Shown here piece after piece: positions 52,403 through 62,426 of a stretch of DNA of 64,000 nt. Under the pieces are notes generated by a model, which made no database searches, was not told the origin of the DNA, and saw only the letters and a list, made by a program, of their open reading frames with translations. The first letter of the stretch is position 1. Each line of letters opens with the position of its first letter. This DNA is from Phytoseiulus persimilis (taxonomy: Eukaryota > Arthropoda > Arachnida > Mesostigmata > Phytoseiidae). A program made the translations under genes and the position numbers. The stretch is from the NCBI GenBank assembly GCA_037576195.1, contig CM075104.1:2734775-2798774 (forward strand), in the 5' to 3' direction.

Positions 52403-55400
52403 CTCTCGCTCTCAATGCAAGAAAGAGGAGAAAACCTCGCAGGAACGACCCGTGATGCCGCAAGATCCATAGTTTTGGTTGCAGATACGCGAAGCACTTA
52501 GAAGAGCTTGGGAAAATTCAGGAGGCCATTCTGTACTACGAAAAATCCAATACCCACCTTCAGCAAGTTCCTCGAATGCTCGTCGAAAAAGATATACACG
52601 GACTCGAGACCTACATCGTCAAAAGCAGGGAGCCGCAGTTCTATAAATGGTGGGCTCAATATCTCGAAAGTCAGGGCGATACCGAGGAAGCTCTGCGTTA
52701 TTACGAGATGGCGAAAGACTTCGTCAGCCTGGTGAGTGAGCGGTCCACAGACACACACGCACGCACAAGAGATACGCACTATCAAGATATTTCTACTCAT
52801 GTCACGTACGAACTCTCCCGACAACCCTGCGCTCGGTGGGTAGTCGTCATTCGCTCTCCCTAAGTTTCACTTTCCCCAGGTCCGGATAAACTGCTTCTTT
52901 AACAATGTGGACACCGCCATGGAAATCGCCAATGACGTTGGAGACCGCGCAGCATGTTTCCACTTGGCTAGACATCTGGAATCAATCGATAGATCTTCGG
53001 ATGCTGTGCATTTCTTTTCAAAGGTATAGCGCATGCATTCGAACACTTTTCCGAGCTTTCTGCGGGTCGGCTTTTCCTCCTGAAAGCTCTGCGCAGGAAA
53101 TTCCCGTCGATGGACGTATAAACCAGTTACGGTTGTCTCGTTGCTCCGAATTCCAGGCTGGGGCGATTTCGAATGCATTGCGCGTGTGCAAAGACAACGG
53201 AATGGATGACCAGCTTTTCTACCTCGCGATTCAAAGTCGGAACAACCAGGACATGCTAGACGTCGCGGCTCACTTCGAGCAGGAGGGAGAAACTCAACGC
53301 GCTGTGACGCTTTACCAGGTCCTTCAGTTTCCTCTGATACCTCCGTCCCTCTATTCCGGATTCTTCTTCGGACGGGCATAGCATATGAAGCTCTCCATAT
53401 CAAGTATAATAAGAACCCAGACGCTGTGTTGGAGGTCCATTTTCGGGGAACGAACTCGAGATCTGCAGAGCTAGTTTGGATGCGAGCGTGTCTCACACAG
53501 GGCTCCTGTTCCACAAGAAACGAAGAATACTGTTCCCAAGTTCTTAACAGCTCGGCTGACTTCTTGGCGTGGCTATTTTGGAAGGGCCACTCACTCGGTA
53601 TCCGTGCATAGAATTCATTCGTTCCTTCCGGGAAACAAACCGACCAACTCCCGAGCCGAGAGGGTAGTCGCCGGTGGCGCACACCCCGTGATGTTGTGGA
53701 TAAAGTCGTTGTACACAGATTGGGTGCGCGTCGACTCCCTCGGTCGGAGCCCAGCGGACGGATCGGTCGACAATTCTGACGGGATCGCATTGCTGTTGCA
53801 GAAGGCAGGATGGCTTGAAAAGGCTCGAGAGCTTTCCGGTGACGCTGTGAATCTCGGAGACGAAATCATCGGGGAAGTTGCTCAGGAAATCTCCCCGAAT
53901 AGCGACGCGGCCGAGGTACAAGCGGCCACCAAGCGTCTCATAGACATGGGATTAACGGAACAGGCCGTGGAGATCCTCGCTCTGAACGGGCAGGCGTACG
54001 CGGCGCTTGATCTCTGCGACCAGTACGACGTTGATCTCACGGAACCGCTGGCTGACAAAATGCTCCGAGGAGTTTACGGGACTCCTCGAACCCAGCTGCT
54101 GAACAGGATCGCGGAGTTCTGCATCAAACAGAAAAGCTTTTTCCTCGCTGCGAAGAAGTACTCAGAGGCCGGCGATAACTCCAGCGCAATGAAAGCGTTG
54201 GTGCAGAGCGACGACACCGACAAGGTGAGCCCCCACCGAGCTCTTATGGTTGAAATCGGAGATTCCTGCCGGCGGCTTCTTGCTATGGGAAAACGTTCCG
54301 CGAAACACGTCTCAACTCGACAGGTGATCCTTTTCGCCCAGGCCATAGACGATCCCGAGATCTACGTGCAGGCGGCCAGTTACCTCCAGACGTTGAACTG
54401 GCGCTCACAACCTGCAATAATGCGCCATATAATTGAGTACTACACGGCGGCTAACGATATGGAACTGCTCGGCAATTTCTACGAGAACTGCGCGGTTTCC
54501 GAGATAGCAGAGTACCACAATTACGAGACCGCATTGAGTGCACTCAACGAAGCCTACAAGGCTCTCAAGGAAGCCCCGATCGGTGAGTAGCCCCACTCAC
54601 ATCCAACGCTTCACCGGAAGTCTCTCCATCTCGTTGAGAGCGGGGGAAGGGGTTGATCACACTTCCTTCTTCGGGGAGCGTTCAATGGAAACTGCGGCAA
54701 CAAACAGATCAATACGATCAAGGCGGACACCTGCGGGAACCGAGGCACCTCGAGAAAGTAACCTGTTTTGGTCTGAAGAGTCTTTGTACAAAGTTTTCGC
54801 GATTTTCCCTTCGAGACATTAAGGCGGGCAATATGGGTCTTCCTCGAACAATTCCACGAGATCCACTCCGTCGCGTATCATCGCGACTATCTTGAAACCC
54901 TGATACATGAACTAAAGCCCCCGACCCCGGGAGCTGATTGATGGACCCCCAAAGCTTATTCGTATCCACCTGCTTTTCTCTTTTGCTCAGGAGACGGAGC
55001 TGCCCTTAATCCATGCGACATATGACCGGCTTCCGCGACAATAACTCGAGCGTTCCCTTAGCTCGAACTGCCACAGCTTATGTCGTTTCAGGTACTGCGC
55101 TGGGAACGAAACTCGAGGCTCTCAGAGCAAAGATAAAGAACATCCAGCAGTTTTTGAAGTTGAAGAAACTGTACAAAGACGGGGAAGTGCGTGAGGCTTT
55201 AGAGAAGATCCAACAGATGTTGCAGTCGCCGGGCAGCAATCCCATTGTCCGAAGAGGAGACCTATACGCTTTCATTGTCGAGCACTACGTCGAGAACGGT
55301 CAGATGAGGTAAACTCGGGGCGTTTACTGCGATGTCACCTCTACTTGGCACCGAGATCGAGCACACGGCTTGCGAGAATGATGAGAAGAACGACGCTAAA

Positions 55401-57003: not shown

Positions 57004-57009
57004 TTTATT
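57004..57009 (-). terminator. Displaced native PUM3 polyadenylation signal
   Basis: AATAAA on the minus strand, 11 bases beyond the left target-site duplication. Removing the transposon would place it 18 bases after the PUM3 stop codon, the same compact arrangement seen for IFT140. It is now about 3.1 kb from the stop. Confidence 0.75.
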
Positions 57010-57020
57010 GTCGGAACATA

Positions 57021-57028
57021 TGTACAGC
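57021..57028. repeat. Left target-site duplication of hAT element
   Basis: TGTACAGC, identical to 60133-60140. Eight bases is the standard hAT duplication length. Confidence 0.97.
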
Positions 57029-57271
57029 CAGTGGCGTGCAACTACCTAGTGCCGCCCGGGGCGGAACCGCCTGACTTGGAAAATGCCGCCCCTCCACTGA
57101 TTTCCCCTGACGTTATCGGCATCACATTTTTGGAAGCAGCTTCGTCAGTGTCAGCAAACGCAAGTCTAACTAGCCCTGGTCTGATTATTGGGAAGGTTTC
57201 CATCCCTCGCGACGTGGATGCTCGGACAATGAGAGACTTATTTTTTGTTTTCTCTTCCCTTTTATTTTTCG

Positions 57272-59799
57272 TTACAGACTCCGCTGAGCGCCCATGGTTG
57301 ACCGGAGATAGGTTTTCATCAACTTCAGTTTGGAGAAACTGCGCTCGCAAATCGCAACGCTGATCCCGATAGTCAGGAGGATCCGAATTAGAATCACGAT
57401 GTTCGCAAGTGAATTCCTGAGCTCGTATTTCTGTATGAAATGTAGAAGGTCGAGTGGGCCTCCGTCTACGATTCGTTTCCTCTCTCCAGACTCGGCAGAA
57501 TCAATCAAACTTTGGAGTCTAGTTCTTTCGATCTTGAATTCCTCTTCGTCTATGTCTTCCTTGTGATTCGTGAGGTCACAGTGATAATCACTATTGAGGA
57601 GATTGCAGGGATTCAAAACATTGAAATCTCCAGCGATTTTGCAGACTTGATCGAATCGCGACTCGATTTCCGTTCAGTGCTCCCGACATATCTTGCTCCA
57701 ATTCTTCGTCGAAAGGCAGTAGAGAATTCCTTCGACGCAGAGGAATAGAGATATCGTTTTCCTCGCAGTGATTTCGTGCGCATACGATGGTATTCTTGAC
57801 GAGTTCGTCTCGATTCTCGAGAAAGAAGCTACTCGGGAATTGGAGCCTCAAAACACACGGGTGCAAGTCCAGCCCTTTTTTCTGCAGGTAATTCTGCGTA
57901 TCGTTGAGCTCTCTCAAGACCGGCTTCCAGAGGTTAAGAAATATCAGGAATTGATAACTTCGAAGGAGTCCGTGCATAATCTCAGCATCCCCTCTGGTCG
58001 CTTGGTTTTCATCATCTCCTGAGAGTTCATCCAAGACCTCAAGGAGCTTCGGGAACTATCGCTTCACTGCGCTTACCGCGTCGCCTCTTGCGCTCCAACG
58101 GGTATCGATGACGCGCTTTACATTGCCCGTCGCTGCAGTAAGAGCATCCCAATGATGATTAGATCCGGAAAATAAGCAGAATAGTTTCTCGATCGTCGCG
58201 AAGAAGCTCGCGGATTTCCCGGATGCTGAGGCCGCGTGTAGACCCGCTAGATTCAGCGAATGATTGCAGCAAGCGATTAACTCTGCCCGCGAATTGACTT
58301 CTCTGATCCTAGCTTGCATCCAGAACGACAACCAGCCATTACGGGCGCATTGTCGTAGGCCTGGCCTCGGCAATTCTGTAGGTCGAGAGCATCGTTCGCC
58401 AAAGTCGCTAGTATCATTGCTGTGATGCCAGCCGCGTCTTTGTTCTTGGTTTCAACAAATCCGACGAAGGACTTCATAACCTTGACGTTCTTACCTTCCA
58501 AGACGATGTATCGCTATACTTGACTGGTCTGGTCCCTGTGCGAGATGTCTGGAGTATTATCGAATATCATTGCGTAATATATCGCTGCTTTCACCTGTTG
58601 TATGATATGATTTCGAACACATTCGCCAAGTTCTTCAATGAACTTGTTCTGGGTACGGTTGGACAGGTGGGTCACGCGTCTTGTCTTCGATAGTTGGCCT
58701 CTGACAAGATGCTCGCGGAGCGCGGGATCCCTTTTAGCCATGAGATGGACGAGCTCGATGAAATTTCCTCGGCTGAATTCACCGTCAAAATCAACGTCGT
58801 AAATATTTTTCTCACAATGACCGCGGAAAGCCAAGTTCTGAAGAGCCAGATACTTGACTATATCCACTAATGTACTAAGTATTTCTTCCCTTTTCTCTAA
58901 CTCAGAGCTCATCTGCCGCTGTCTTTTCTCGTCGATAGTCTCGTTACGATCGATTCTGATGCGGAGTTCCTCCCACTTGGTGAGTGCATCCTGATGAGTT
59001 GGGCTTGCTTCGTGCTCCGGGACTTTCGGGTTCAATTTCCACCATTTTCCAAAACCTTCTTTCGAACTGAATTCGCAAAAAAATTCCCGGCTGAAGAGCC
59101 GACAGCAGAACCAGAAGAGGGCAGATTCTGACGGAGAATACACCATCCAATTTCTCAGTATTTTCTCGCCATTCTGGTTCCTTCGGAAAAACCAATCTCT
59201 GGTCAGACGACGGTCTTGCCCTTTAGTTTGTTCACCGGGACGCGTCGCTTTCTCGAAATTAAAATCCAGTTTCTGGAGAGAGACCATATCGCGGCGGGCG
59301 AAAATGAGAGCTCAAAGTCCTGGGCCACATCTTGACCTGAATCGAACGATATCTCCCGGACTGGAGAATCTTCTCCCTGGCTACTCCGTGGCTGTGCGTG
59401 GAAACCGTCACTGAGCTCAACTCTCTGAGCTTCACTAACGACAGATTCCACTTGCCTTGCTGAGCCGCCACGGAGCTGCGCACCAACCGGGTTCGACACC
59501 AGTTCGTTGGTACTCTGGTCGGCAGTATTACTGACATTTTCGGAGGATGCGTTACGGGTATCGCCGGCAGCTGACGCGTTGGCATTACTCGAAGCTTTAG
59601 CCATGACCCCTTGTGGATGCAAGCACTTGAGGAAACTTCCCCTTAGTTTCTTCATTTCTTCCTCTCTCAGTTTCCGCTTCTTCCCGGATGCGGCACCGCT
59701 CTCCTTGACGCGTTTCATGTCCAACTGAACTTTCTTGTTGACTTCCTCAACTCGATTGACAAACGACCTTGCGGCACCGCTCTCCTTGACGCGTTTCAT
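57272..59799 (-). pseudogene. hAT transposase (ZMYM1/TTF-like), broken
   Basis: The N-terminus MKRVKESGAASGKKRKLREE is typical of this branch; the first ATG is at 59799. Then come NGEKILRNWMVYSPS, a His-containing KVPEHEASPTHQDALTKWEE, FDNTPDISHRDQTSQV, NCRGQAYDNAPVMAG, CCNHSLNLAG, VIDTRWSARGDAV and the C-terminal dimerisation motif CERSFSKLKLMKTYLRSTM. The domain order is complete, but the frame is interrupted by shifts near 59205-59287, 58277-58373, 57591-57660 and 57285, and by in-frame TAG codons at 58516-58514 and 58058-58056. An 81-base tandem duplication near the N-terminus is in frame. Introns cannot explain the in-frame stops. Non-functional as it stands. Confidence 0.93.
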
Positions 59800-59851
59800 G
59801 TCCAACTGAACTTTCTTGTTGACTTCCTCAACTCGATTGACAAACGACCTT
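59690..59851. repeat. 81-bp perfect tandem duplication in the transposase N-terminus
   Basis: Two copies, 59690-59770 and 59771-59851. Each encodes the same 27-residue unit including MKRVKESGA, and the length is a multiple of three, so the frame is kept. Confidence 0.95.
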
Positions 59852-60015
59852 GCCTACGGTCACGTCACCACGCAAAACTATTAGTGAACGGCTCTGCCTA
59901 GGTTTCTACGCCTTGGCTCTAATCGTAAGTCCAACGGTTTGGGGAGAGCGGTCTTGAAAGACGACGAAATTGAACTGAAATCTTGATGCGTAGCTTTCTC
60001 GTAACCGTGAATTTT

Positions 60016-60021
60016 TTTATT
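60016..60021 (-). terminator. Transposon-borne AATAAA downstream of PUM3
   Basis: A canonical hexamer in the PUM3 sense, about 119 bases after the stop codon and before the transposase start. Probably the functional polyadenylation signal of the interrupted allele, but usage is inferred. Confidence 0.5.
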
Positions 60022-60086
60022 GATGCCGGAACTCGCGACAGGAAAGAGTGACAATGCCGCCCCCGGAAAGTGCCGCCCGGGGCGGA

Positions 60087-60109
60087 CCCCCCCCCCCCCC
60101 CCCCCCCCC
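60087..60109. repeat. 23-base homopolymer C run in hAT end
   Basis: An uninterrupted run of C on the plus strand, hence G in the PUM3 transcript. The true length may differ through sequencing or slippage. Confidence 0.85.
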
Positions 60110-60132
60110 TGCCCTCCCTATGCACGCCACTG

Positions 60133-60140
60133 TGTACAGC
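60133..60140. repeat. Right target-site duplication of hAT element
   Basis: TGTACAGC. Its last base is the complement of the final G of the PUM3 stop codon TAG (60142-60140). Confidence 0.97.
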
Positions 60141-62426
60141 TACAACTTTTGCAGGAGAATTTCTGCCCCTTTGCTCTTCTCTTCCTTGATCGCAGCTTTA
60201 TCCTGCGACAACAGACTCAGCGCCCAAGATTTCACGTCTTCGTCCCTGATTTCCAGCAAACGAATACACAAAAATGCGCCTCGGTTGCATCTCCACCAGG
60301 ATCTCAAAACACAATCGTTCGATTTTTCCATGAGGATTCTCGCAAACACTGATTTTTCCCTCTGCTTATCATGAGACAAGAGCTTCTTCAGAAAGAAGTG
60401 CCCGTGATTGCTTTCTATGAAGTGATTTTCAACGTTCTTTTCGTACGGAGTTTGCAGATGCTCGACAACACGGAGCATTGCTTTCCTCTGACAAGTCTCG
60501 TCAGCAGCCACGATCATCTCGCCAATCGCGACAGAAACTTCTCCTTCCTCAAAGAGATCTTCGAAGTTCTCACAGATTGCATCGATCAGGTGCTGCTGAA
60601 CCAACGCTAGGAGTTCTTTCCGTCGAAGAACCGGCTCTTTCTTGGAGTTTACGTTTCCATCACCCTGTTTGAGAAGCTCGATCGTGTCCGGCGAAAGCAC
60701 GCATGGATTCCTGCCAAGCATGAGATAAGCCAGAACTTTTGCTCCGAACTTATTCTTCAAAATTTCGTGGCGATTCTTCATGAGCTCCGTGATCACGGTT
60801 ACATTCAGCATGACTGTGTCGTCAACAGCGTCGAACAGTCCCATCAGCACCTGTAAGCAACGTTTCGGAACAGTAAAAAAGAGATCAGCCCAGGGAACAC
60901 GATACGAACAGTTTCCGCTTCGTAGCAATTTGATCCCGCCCGAGCAAGCATCGCTCCAGATAGACCGACCTTGTGCCCTTGGTCATCGGTGGCGATTTTG
61001 GTGACGAACTGCCTGAAGGACTTCGCGATCGCTTTGCGCTCCTTGGCTCCAGAGTGCCAGATGCACTGGAGCGCGACTTGCATGCCTTCTTTCGTGTGCA
61101 GAATTTCAACAAGAATGTGCAGAATTTGTCCGATCATATCCAGGCGGTCAGCTTTGTCCACGAGAACTTCGAACAATTGTTGCAGGAGCATGTGATATAA
61201 CCCGTATTTGATGACACCCTTGTCTGTCAATTTTACAAGCGTCTCCTAAGGGGAATTATGAGAGATTCAGTCGCTTGCAATAGGAATATTTCTCTGATCT
61301 GTCTCTCACGGTCGCGGAGATCTGTACACCATGGAAGCCTACCTTGAATTCGGATAGCATGTTTTCCTTCGCCAACTTCTCGGTACATTTGTCATAGACC
61401 ACCTTGAATGCTACCGCATCTTCTTTCTTAAAGTACACCAGCTCTTTAGAATAGAACTCTTGAGCCATTTCTGCTTTCTTCTTGTTGTTGCACACATCCT
61501 CGTAGAGAGTGGAAATTATCTGTGCAGCTTCTTTGTGTAGGAACAGGTCGGGCACGCGGGTTTGAACAGCCTTGAAGATAGCGTCTTTGTGAGCTTGACT
61601 TCCGTGGCGGAGGAAAGCCATGATGAGGTTCTTTGCGTATTTACACTTGGCGTAGTGGAGTATTTTGTCCTGGAAAAATGGAAGCGGATAGTGAGGTAAT
61701 CTGTCCCTGGGATGAGCGACCAGATCCAACGAGGCACTAAGTCTTCAGGAGTCGTGTCCGTCTTGGATCGCAACCGAGACAGACTATTTCGCGAAGACTC
61801 ACCTTCACTTCATCGAAAATCGAATTTTTGATTTCGGGACTGCCGTTCGTGTAAAGGCACTCAACTACCCTTGACGTGTCATGTGCTTCAACAACGTTTG
61901 CGATGCTACCCTTGAGCAGCTGGTGCAGCTCCAGTGCGAGTTTATTCCGTTCCTCTGAGCGAACGTCAGAACGCCTCAGTTTTTCCCAAACTTTTTTCGC
62001 ACTGTGTTGGAGCTGGTAAAACTTGTTGTCTTGTTGTTGCCGCATCTGAGGAAAGTTCTAGGCATGAGCCAACACGCACGCAGACATCGGCGTCACCCCG
62101 GCCAGCATATCATTCCAAATAATGCGAATACCCACCTTCTTTCGATCCTTCTTTTTCATTTCAAACCATTTCGGTTTATCATCGTCGGGCTTATTCTCAC
62201 CGGGCTTGCCAGTCTTTTTCACGAACGGTTTCTTCGTGAAAGGTTTCTGACCGACAGCTCCTTTCTTGATGAAAGGTTTCTTCGCATCGGTCTTTCCACC
62301 AAATGTACCTTTCTTCGCGAAAGGCCTTTTCGGAGCTGTTTTATCACCCTCAGTGCCTTTCCTGAATTTTGCTGGAGGACCCGTTGCGTCTCCAGCTGGA
62401 CGTTTCGAGGCTGTTCTCTTGTTCAT
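60140..62426 (-). CDS. PUM3: PUM3 / Puf-A (penguin), nucleolar Pumilio-like protein, complete
   Basis: A divergent PUF-repeat protein of the nucleolus; PUM3/Puf6 relatives bind RNA and act in ribosome biogenesis. Five minus-strand exons: 62426-62136, 62045-61803, 61669-61343, 61245-60970 and 60850-60140. All junctions are GT..AG in phase 0, giving 615 residues (human PUM3 is 648). The first exon is basic, with repeated KKPF/KKG motifs (KRPFAKKGTFGGK, KKPFIKKGAVG), as expected for a nucleolar-targeting tail. Then come VWEKLRRSDVRSEERNKL, VVEAHDTSRVVECL, LHYAKCKYAKNLIMAFLRHG and the C-terminal CPL-type region (GDGNVNSKKEPVLRRKELL, ENHFIESNHGHFFLKKLL). The protein ends GAEILLQKL with TAG, matching the family C-terminus, so the adjacent transposon has not truncated it. 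The start at 62426 follows a probable spliced leader exon. If that intron is retained, the same frame extends to an ATG at 62465. Confidence 0.95.

Follow-up and report, generated by a model that had tools for sequence, protein, structure and literature searches.

Poly(A) sites derived from transposable elements are common in vertebrates. In mouse Comt, a B2 SINE inserted at the 3′ end gives the host gene an earlier poly(A) signal, as described in a review (PMC10926513). Transposons of the hAT type are described in a second source (PMC3942097) as elements of 2.5-5 kb with terminal inverted repeats of 10-25 bp; the hAT element BuT2 of Drosophila, covered in the same source, has 12-bp inverted ends and 8-bp duplications, occurs as short, internally deleted copies alongside long ones, and is predicted to carry a five-exon gene.

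Here we analyzed a 64,000-nucleotide stretch of DNA from Phytoseiulus persimilis (the window), in which a hAT element lies directly behind the gene encoding PUM3. Like the B2 SINE in Comt, the inserted element would provide its host with an earlier poly(A) signal. It differs from that case in several respects: the element is a DNA transposon of the cut-and-paste type, the host is an arthropod, almost no host 3′UTR is left, and use of the signal is predicted. None of the titles and abstract openings listed by our literature searches mentions this locus.

Anatomy of the insertion

An initial annotation of the sequence had described a hAT transposon inserted behind PUM3, and our analysis confirms this observation. 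The element spans 3,104 bp, ends in exact inverted repeats of 12 bp and is flanked by the identical 8-base duplications that had been reported, the right one ending on the G of the PUM3 TAG codon (Table 1). The 8-mer TGTACAGC occurs four times on both strands of the window, compared with 0.66 occurrences expected, and a count of four was reached in 1 of 100 shuffles. That an exact pair of 8-mers abuts an exact 12-bp inverted repeat is no chance pattern, and the same anatomy, each time with a different 8-mer, is found in 6 of the 16 other family members that were fetched. The insertion does not sit exactly at the stop codon, as had been proposed: the element starts 7 bases past it.

Table 1. 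Features of the PUM3 locus and of the inserted hAT element (positions within the window).
Feature	Position	Strand	Remarks
PUM3 exon 1	62136-62426	-	splice sites
PUM3 exon 2	61803-62045	-	splice sites
PUM3 exon 3	61343-61669	-	splice sites
PUM3 exon 4	60970-61245	-	splice sites
PUM3 exon 5	60140-60850	-	TAG stop 60142-60140; CPL domain PF08144, E 3.6e-29; splice sites
Right target-site duplication	60133-60140	.	TGTACAGC; ends on the G (60140) of the PUM3 TAG
hAT element	57029-60132	-	3,104 bp; transposase in PUM3 orientation; broken copy; exact inverted ends
Terminal inverted repeat, right arm	60121-60132	-	TGCACGCCACTG, 12 bp, exact
23-G run	60087-60109	-	PUM3 sense strand; 30 bases past stop
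AATAAA in element 5′ end	60016-60021	-	118 bases past PUM3 stop; predicted new PUM3 poly(A) signal
Transposase gene remains	57272-59853	-	several broken frames
81-bp tandem duplication	59689-59850	.	window copy
AATAAA behind transposase frame	57261-57266	-	absent from the initial annotation
Terminal inverted repeat, left arm	57029-57040	+	CAGTGGCGTGCA, 12 bp, exact
Left target-site duplication	57021-57028	.	TGTACAGC
AATAAA, presumed native PUM3 signal	57004-57009	-	18 bases past stop in the joined empty site

Family membership and decay of the window copy

The assignment to hAT also rests on domain content. The broken frames of the window copy match the hAT dimerisation domain PF05699 above the cut-off (E 9.8e-7) and DUF4371 (PF14291) below it (E 3.9e-4); in the relative L029, both domains lie above the cut-off. 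The C-terminal dimerisation region is thus present in both, covering profile positions 17-84 in L029 and 17-71 of 84 in the window fragment, which lost its end through a deletion. At 62% identity over 69% of its length, the L029 transposase matches a protein of Galendromus occidentalis, and many relatives that combine DUF4371 with hAT dimerisation carry the name “zinc finger MYM-type protein 1-like”. A sequence search with the L029 protein against solved structures gave no match at E up to 1.

The element is a member of a multi-copy, DUF4371-type hAT family. Both ends together with their own exact 8-bp duplications are present in the 6 fetched pieces mentioned above (7 of 17 with the window copy); the remaining 10 of 16 lack the combination of two recognisable ends and matching 8-mers, among them L030, whose 5′ end has diverged and which has no matching duplication. 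In its 8-bp duplications, 12-bp inverted ends, length of 3.1 kb and domain content, the window copy resembles other DUF4371-type hAT transposons, but it is a broken copy situated immediately after the stop codon of a host gene. The inverted ends and duplications, and the occurrence of short, internally deleted copies next to long ones, are shared with BuT2 (PMC3942097). In contrast to the five exons predicted there, L029 and L030 encode the transposase in a single open frame.

Compared with the frame of L029, the window copy has four frame-breaking deletions, none of them common to L030-L033. An 81-bp unit that is tandemly duplicated in the window copy is present once in 14 of the 16 fetched relatives, namely those spanning the place (L029-L042). 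We also considered whether two stretches of 58 bp and 109 bp absent from the window copy could be introns and rejected this reading: both fall inside the frame that is open in L029, and L035 lacks a stretch with other borders at the second place. We infer the order of insertion and decay. Of 2,940 compared bases of the window copy, 65 are present in no other copy; these private bases suggest that the window copy is not brand-new, and part of them may predate the insertion.

PUM3 and the reconstructed empty site

PUM3 (Puf-A, KIAA0020), defined by Puf-like repeats and a C-terminal CPL domain, is encoded here at full length, and its coding region is untouched by the insertion. The gene is intact, with 615 amino acids and four introns with GT/AG borders, and its product is 76% identical to PUM3 of Galendromus occidentalis over 100% of the length. 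It aligns to its last residue with the solved structure 4wzr (KIAA0020; query 99-615, E 8.9e-78), and its C-terminal end falls in the same column as that of all six aligned relatives (two mites and four predicted proteins). The profile of the PUF repeat gave a single match only (E 0.022, below the cut-off). A candidate gene between PUM3 and IFT140 gave a weak Utp21-like match (E 0.089, below the cut-off); a search against solved structures returned its best match, at E 0.42, to another protein.

Joining the flanks after removal of the element and one duplication yields TAG-CTGTACA-TATGTTCCGAC-AATAAA. The presumed native signal indeed lies 18 bases past the stop in this reconstruction, as had been claimed. 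The further statement that the duplication restored the stop codon is too strong: the codon is kept automatically, since a duplication covering part of it will in every case leave the coding side with an intact copy. Neither an empty site nor a second PUM3 was found in the assembly, where each flank matches once.

Poly(A) signals behind PUM3

Between 56500 and 60700, the minus strand contains three AATAAA hexamers (60021-60016, 57266-57261 and 57009-57004). The first that PUM3 transcripts meet in the occupied allele is the one contributed by the element, in agreement with the initial annotation; it lies inside the element and close behind the host stop, and none of 12 other signal-like hexamers occurs between the stop and 60016. 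That the native signal had been displaced by 3.1 kb also holds, but the next alternative behind the element's 5′ signal is the hexamer at 57266-57261, which precedes the native one and is probably the poly(A) signal of the transposase itself. Over the interval 10-60 bases downstream, the T fraction amounts to 0.34 for the element's 5′ signal, 0.38 for the native signal and 0.20 for the signal at 57266.

AATAAA is enriched behind stop codons in this genome. It occurs within 125 bases of the stop at 14 of 38 sampled gene ends (10 of 20 cathepsins and 4 of 18 mitochondrial carriers), compared with about 2% expected from the hexamer frequency in the window. On this ground, use of the element's signal by PUM3 is plausible. 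In 12 of the 20 cathepsins, the hexamer follows the stop at a distance of 7-165 bases; it is absent within 700 bases in the other 8 and within up to 400 bases in 8 of the 18 carriers, so AATAAA is not the sole signal used in this genome.

Among 14 BLAST-mapped copies of the family, we found no special conservation of the 5′ hexamer: its columns agree with the majority in 11 copies, and 131 of the 192 neighbouring 6-base windows lie at or below its fraction (mean 0.73). The literal AATAAA stands at this place in 9 of 16 rows, made up of the window copy and all fetched pieces but L044 (15 of 16; L034 barely aligns there). Both counts differ because the BLAST count relies on gapped mapping and leaves out L034, L043 and L044. 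In the other 15 aligned rows, the longest G run of the 5′ region measures between 3 and 20 bases.

Discussion

Taken as a whole, the locus is probably best explained by a hAT insertion at the PUM3 stop, after which the element's 5′ AATAAA came to end the mRNA. A hAT copy would have entered by cut-and-paste transposition at a staggered cut of 8 bp, the proximal edge of which coincided with the final base of the stop codon, and the short native 3′UTR would thereby have moved 3.1 kb away from PUM3. Cleavage and polyadenylation of the PUM3 mRNA would most likely take place past the AATAAA near the element's 5′ end, and the resulting 3′UTR would measure roughly 140 bases. Its first 7 bases would be host sequence, followed by the element with its 23-G run, so a 3′UTR made entirely of transposon sequence, as initially described, overstates the case.

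The locus yields a precise prediction that is cheap to check, PUM3 3′ ends near 60000. It offers a clean natural case of whether a conserved gene tolerates the one-step replacement of nearly its whole 3′UTR by a DNA transposon. Ideas about mechanism are left unchanged, as mobile elements are already known to donate poly(A) signals; this would be an unusually neat example of an ordinary mechanism.

As a counterpoint, the 5′ hexamer may represent an AT-rich, promoter-like patch in the transposase gene. Transcripts would then leave this TATA-like sequence unused, cross the element and end at 57266-57261 or at the native 57009-57004, with a 3′UTR of 2.9-3.1 kb. Both downstream hexamers exist. The 5′ one shows no special conservation and, read in sense, precedes the transposase start, where a signal that the element wanted used would be oddly placed. 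We nevertheless consider such read-through unlikely: the first good hexamer past a stop is often used, and a distance of 118 bases fits the range of the cathepsin gene ends described above.

With three successive AATAAA on the sense strand and a 23-G run between the stop and the first of them, the 5′ signal could also be weak or impeded, and short and long PUM3 isoforms would coexist. This seems quite unlikely to us. In a fold model without quadruplexes, the stretch is predicted to be no more stable than shuffled sequences (z −0.11, 77 of 200 shuffles folding at least as well), which speaks against the idea, and we rejected an unusual RNA structure in the new 3′UTR on the same comparison.

The insertion could moreover be a rare or private allele, or a fault of the assembly, with most PUM3 alleles keeping their native end, a situation compatible with any of the other readings for the inserted allele. 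A single assembly was available, and the duplications and inverted ends are still perfect. A fault is hard to reconcile with the exact anatomy of a hAT insertion, the private bases suggest that the window copy is not brand-new, and the assembly has no second PUM3 or empty site. We consider this reading very unlikely. Finally, we give very little credence to the notion that the family carries a 5′ sense poly(A) signal which halts incoming host transcription, shields the element and renders insertions behind stop codons harmless; if it were true, such elements would act as portable 3′-end modules.

Insertion of a hAT element directly behind PUM3

The 3,104-bp stretch behind PUM3 is bounded by exact 12-bp inverted ends and lies between two copies of TGTACAGC, in agreement with the identical 8-base duplications described in the initial annotation. 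In its minus-strand broken frames, the Pfam profile of the hAT dimerisation region matches above the cut-off and DUF4371 below it. A search of the assembly (181 Mb, 127 contigs; window at C4:2734775-2798774) with the whole element gave at least 81 matches including the window's own, many of them pieces of a single copy. Both ends together with exact 8-bp duplications were found at six of 16 other genomic places (L029-L044), and the 8-mer differs each time. Since these six carry duplications of their own, the anatomy is that of a cut-and-paste insertion. The hAT insertion directly behind an intact PUM3 is real.

Features of the PUM3 locus and two related element copies
Feature	Position	Strand	Remark
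PUM3 exons 1-5	62426-62136, 62045-61803, 61669-61343, 61245-60970, 60850-60140	minus	GT/AG introns, borders read from sequence
TGTACAGC duplication copies	57021-57028 and 60133-60140		
23-G run	60109-60087	PUM3 sense	starts 30 bases after stop
AATAAA, element 5' end	60021-60016	PUM3 sense (minus)	118 bases after stop
81-bp tandem duplication	59689-59850		window copy
AATAAA behind transposase frame	57266-57261	PUM3 sense (minus)	missed by the initial annotation
AATAAA, presumed native	57009-57004	PUM3 sense (minus)	18 bases after stop in joined flanks (element and one duplication removed)
Relative L029	G000:C3:34706201-34709386		
Relative L030	G000:C1:45274986-45278135		

The predicted PUM3 frame is uninterrupted over 615 residues, with exon borders as we read them. 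Its protein shows 76% identity to that of Galendromus occidentalis over the whole length and 60% over 99% to that of Tropilaelaps mercedesae, which identifies the host as a mite, most likely a member of the Phytoseiidae; no COX1 match turned up in the assembly. Because the end column is the same in all six aligned relatives (two named mites and four unnamed predicted proteins), and because the solved structure 4wzr (human KIAA0020) aligns as far as the last residue, the insertion very probably neither shortened nor lengthened PUM3. Three fish proteins are two residues longer at the end. The TAG codon is separated from the element by 7 bases. The duplication did restore the stop codon, as had been claimed, but this is automatic, since an 8-bp duplication covering part of a stop codon always leaves an intact copy on the coding side.

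A candidate poly(A) signal within the element

Joining the flanks placed the presumed native AATAAA where the initial annotation had expected it. The new AATAAA noted inside the element is also present, at a distance of 118 bases from the stop. Twelve other signal-like hexamers were tried, none of which occurs between the stop and 60016.

As a yardstick, we used stop-to-AATAAA distances from two families of genes in this genome. A cathepsin search with 66 matches gave 30 loci, of which the 23 extending to position 214 or beyond in the 220-position domain were used (L065 and L069-L074 were dropped); three of these (L049, L050, L055), in which the following stop comes after about 100 residues, were set aside. 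AATAAA follows the stop by 7-165 bases in 12 of the 20 remaining genes (ten within 125), including L048 and L051, which have stops inside the domain, and is absent from 700 bases in eight. Five genes with exactly 11 bases (L056, L057, L058, L060, L067) look like close paralogues. Such distances suggest that this mite often has very short 3'UTRs. Among 18 mitochondrial carrier loci, picked from 115 matches as resembling the last repeat, AATAAA was found within 125 bases in four, within 400 in ten and not at all in eight (400 bases searched, 338 for L083); L078 and L084 have stops within the matched region, and the frames of L083 and L092 continue for about 50 residues up to the stop. Pooled, 14/38 gene ends have AATAAA within 125 bases, compared with about 2% expected by chance from its frequency in the window, which makes both the presumed native and the new distance ordinary here and the element-borne AATAAA a credible candidate for the PUM3 poly(A) signal. 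The searched stretch lacks AATAAA at 16/38 gene ends, indicating that other signals also serve in this genome.

On the sense strand this AATAAA precedes the transposase start, and for the element itself it could be an AT-rich, promoter-like patch. It is spelled literally near the 5' end in 9 of 16 rows (window and fetched family copies), its columns are not more conserved than neighbouring ones, and nothing in the copy comparison supports its evolution as a family terminator.

The supply of a poly(A) signal by an element is an already-known kind of event: one review describes a B2 SINE bringing a premature poly(A) signal to mouse Comt (PMC10926513), and according to another, introns can acquire premature poly(A) sites through element insertion (PMC8232201).

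In the predicted 3'UTR, the length of the G run may be misassembled; the longest G run in the 5' region of the 15 other family rows is 3 to 20. The RNA fold behind the PUM3 stop is not more stable than shuffles. An IFT140 C-terminal TPR domain (PF24760, E 3.2e-16; 55010-55312, plus strand) marks a predicted IFT140 gene beyond the insertion, convergent with PUM3.

Decay and relatives of the element

The window copy is broken. Four deletions relative to the L029 frame (58, 1, 11 and 109 bp) each disrupt the reading frame, and none of them recurs in L030-L033; the 109-bp deletion removed the end of the dimerisation region. Of the 16 fetched relatives, 14 span the site of the 81-bp repeat and have just one unit there, and 65 of 2,940 compared bases are private to the window copy. 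Part of this decay may be older than the insertion.

L029 and L030 are 0.2% apart, and each has one continuous open frame, 871 codons long (870 residues from the first methionine), which points to recent activity or recent duplication. The L029 protein exceeds the Pfam cut-offs of both hAT dimerisation and DUF4371. Among the best 120 of 138 matches, many of them nameless, the label zinc finger MYM-type protein 1-like is borne by many of the named relatives. For the transposase (L029:917-3526), the closest named relative of nearly full length among the matches listed is from the frog Ranitomeya imitator (48% over 99%); a protein of the tick Dermacentor albipictus is less close (36% over 99%). 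Such patchy relatives would fit horizontal transfer. One internal deletion (element positions 647-2590, sense) is common to 7/16 places (L035-L041), apparently a short, non-autonomous subfamily of ~1.1 kb. Downstream of L029, a frame reads like a retroelement with what are presumably zinc-knuckle motifs.
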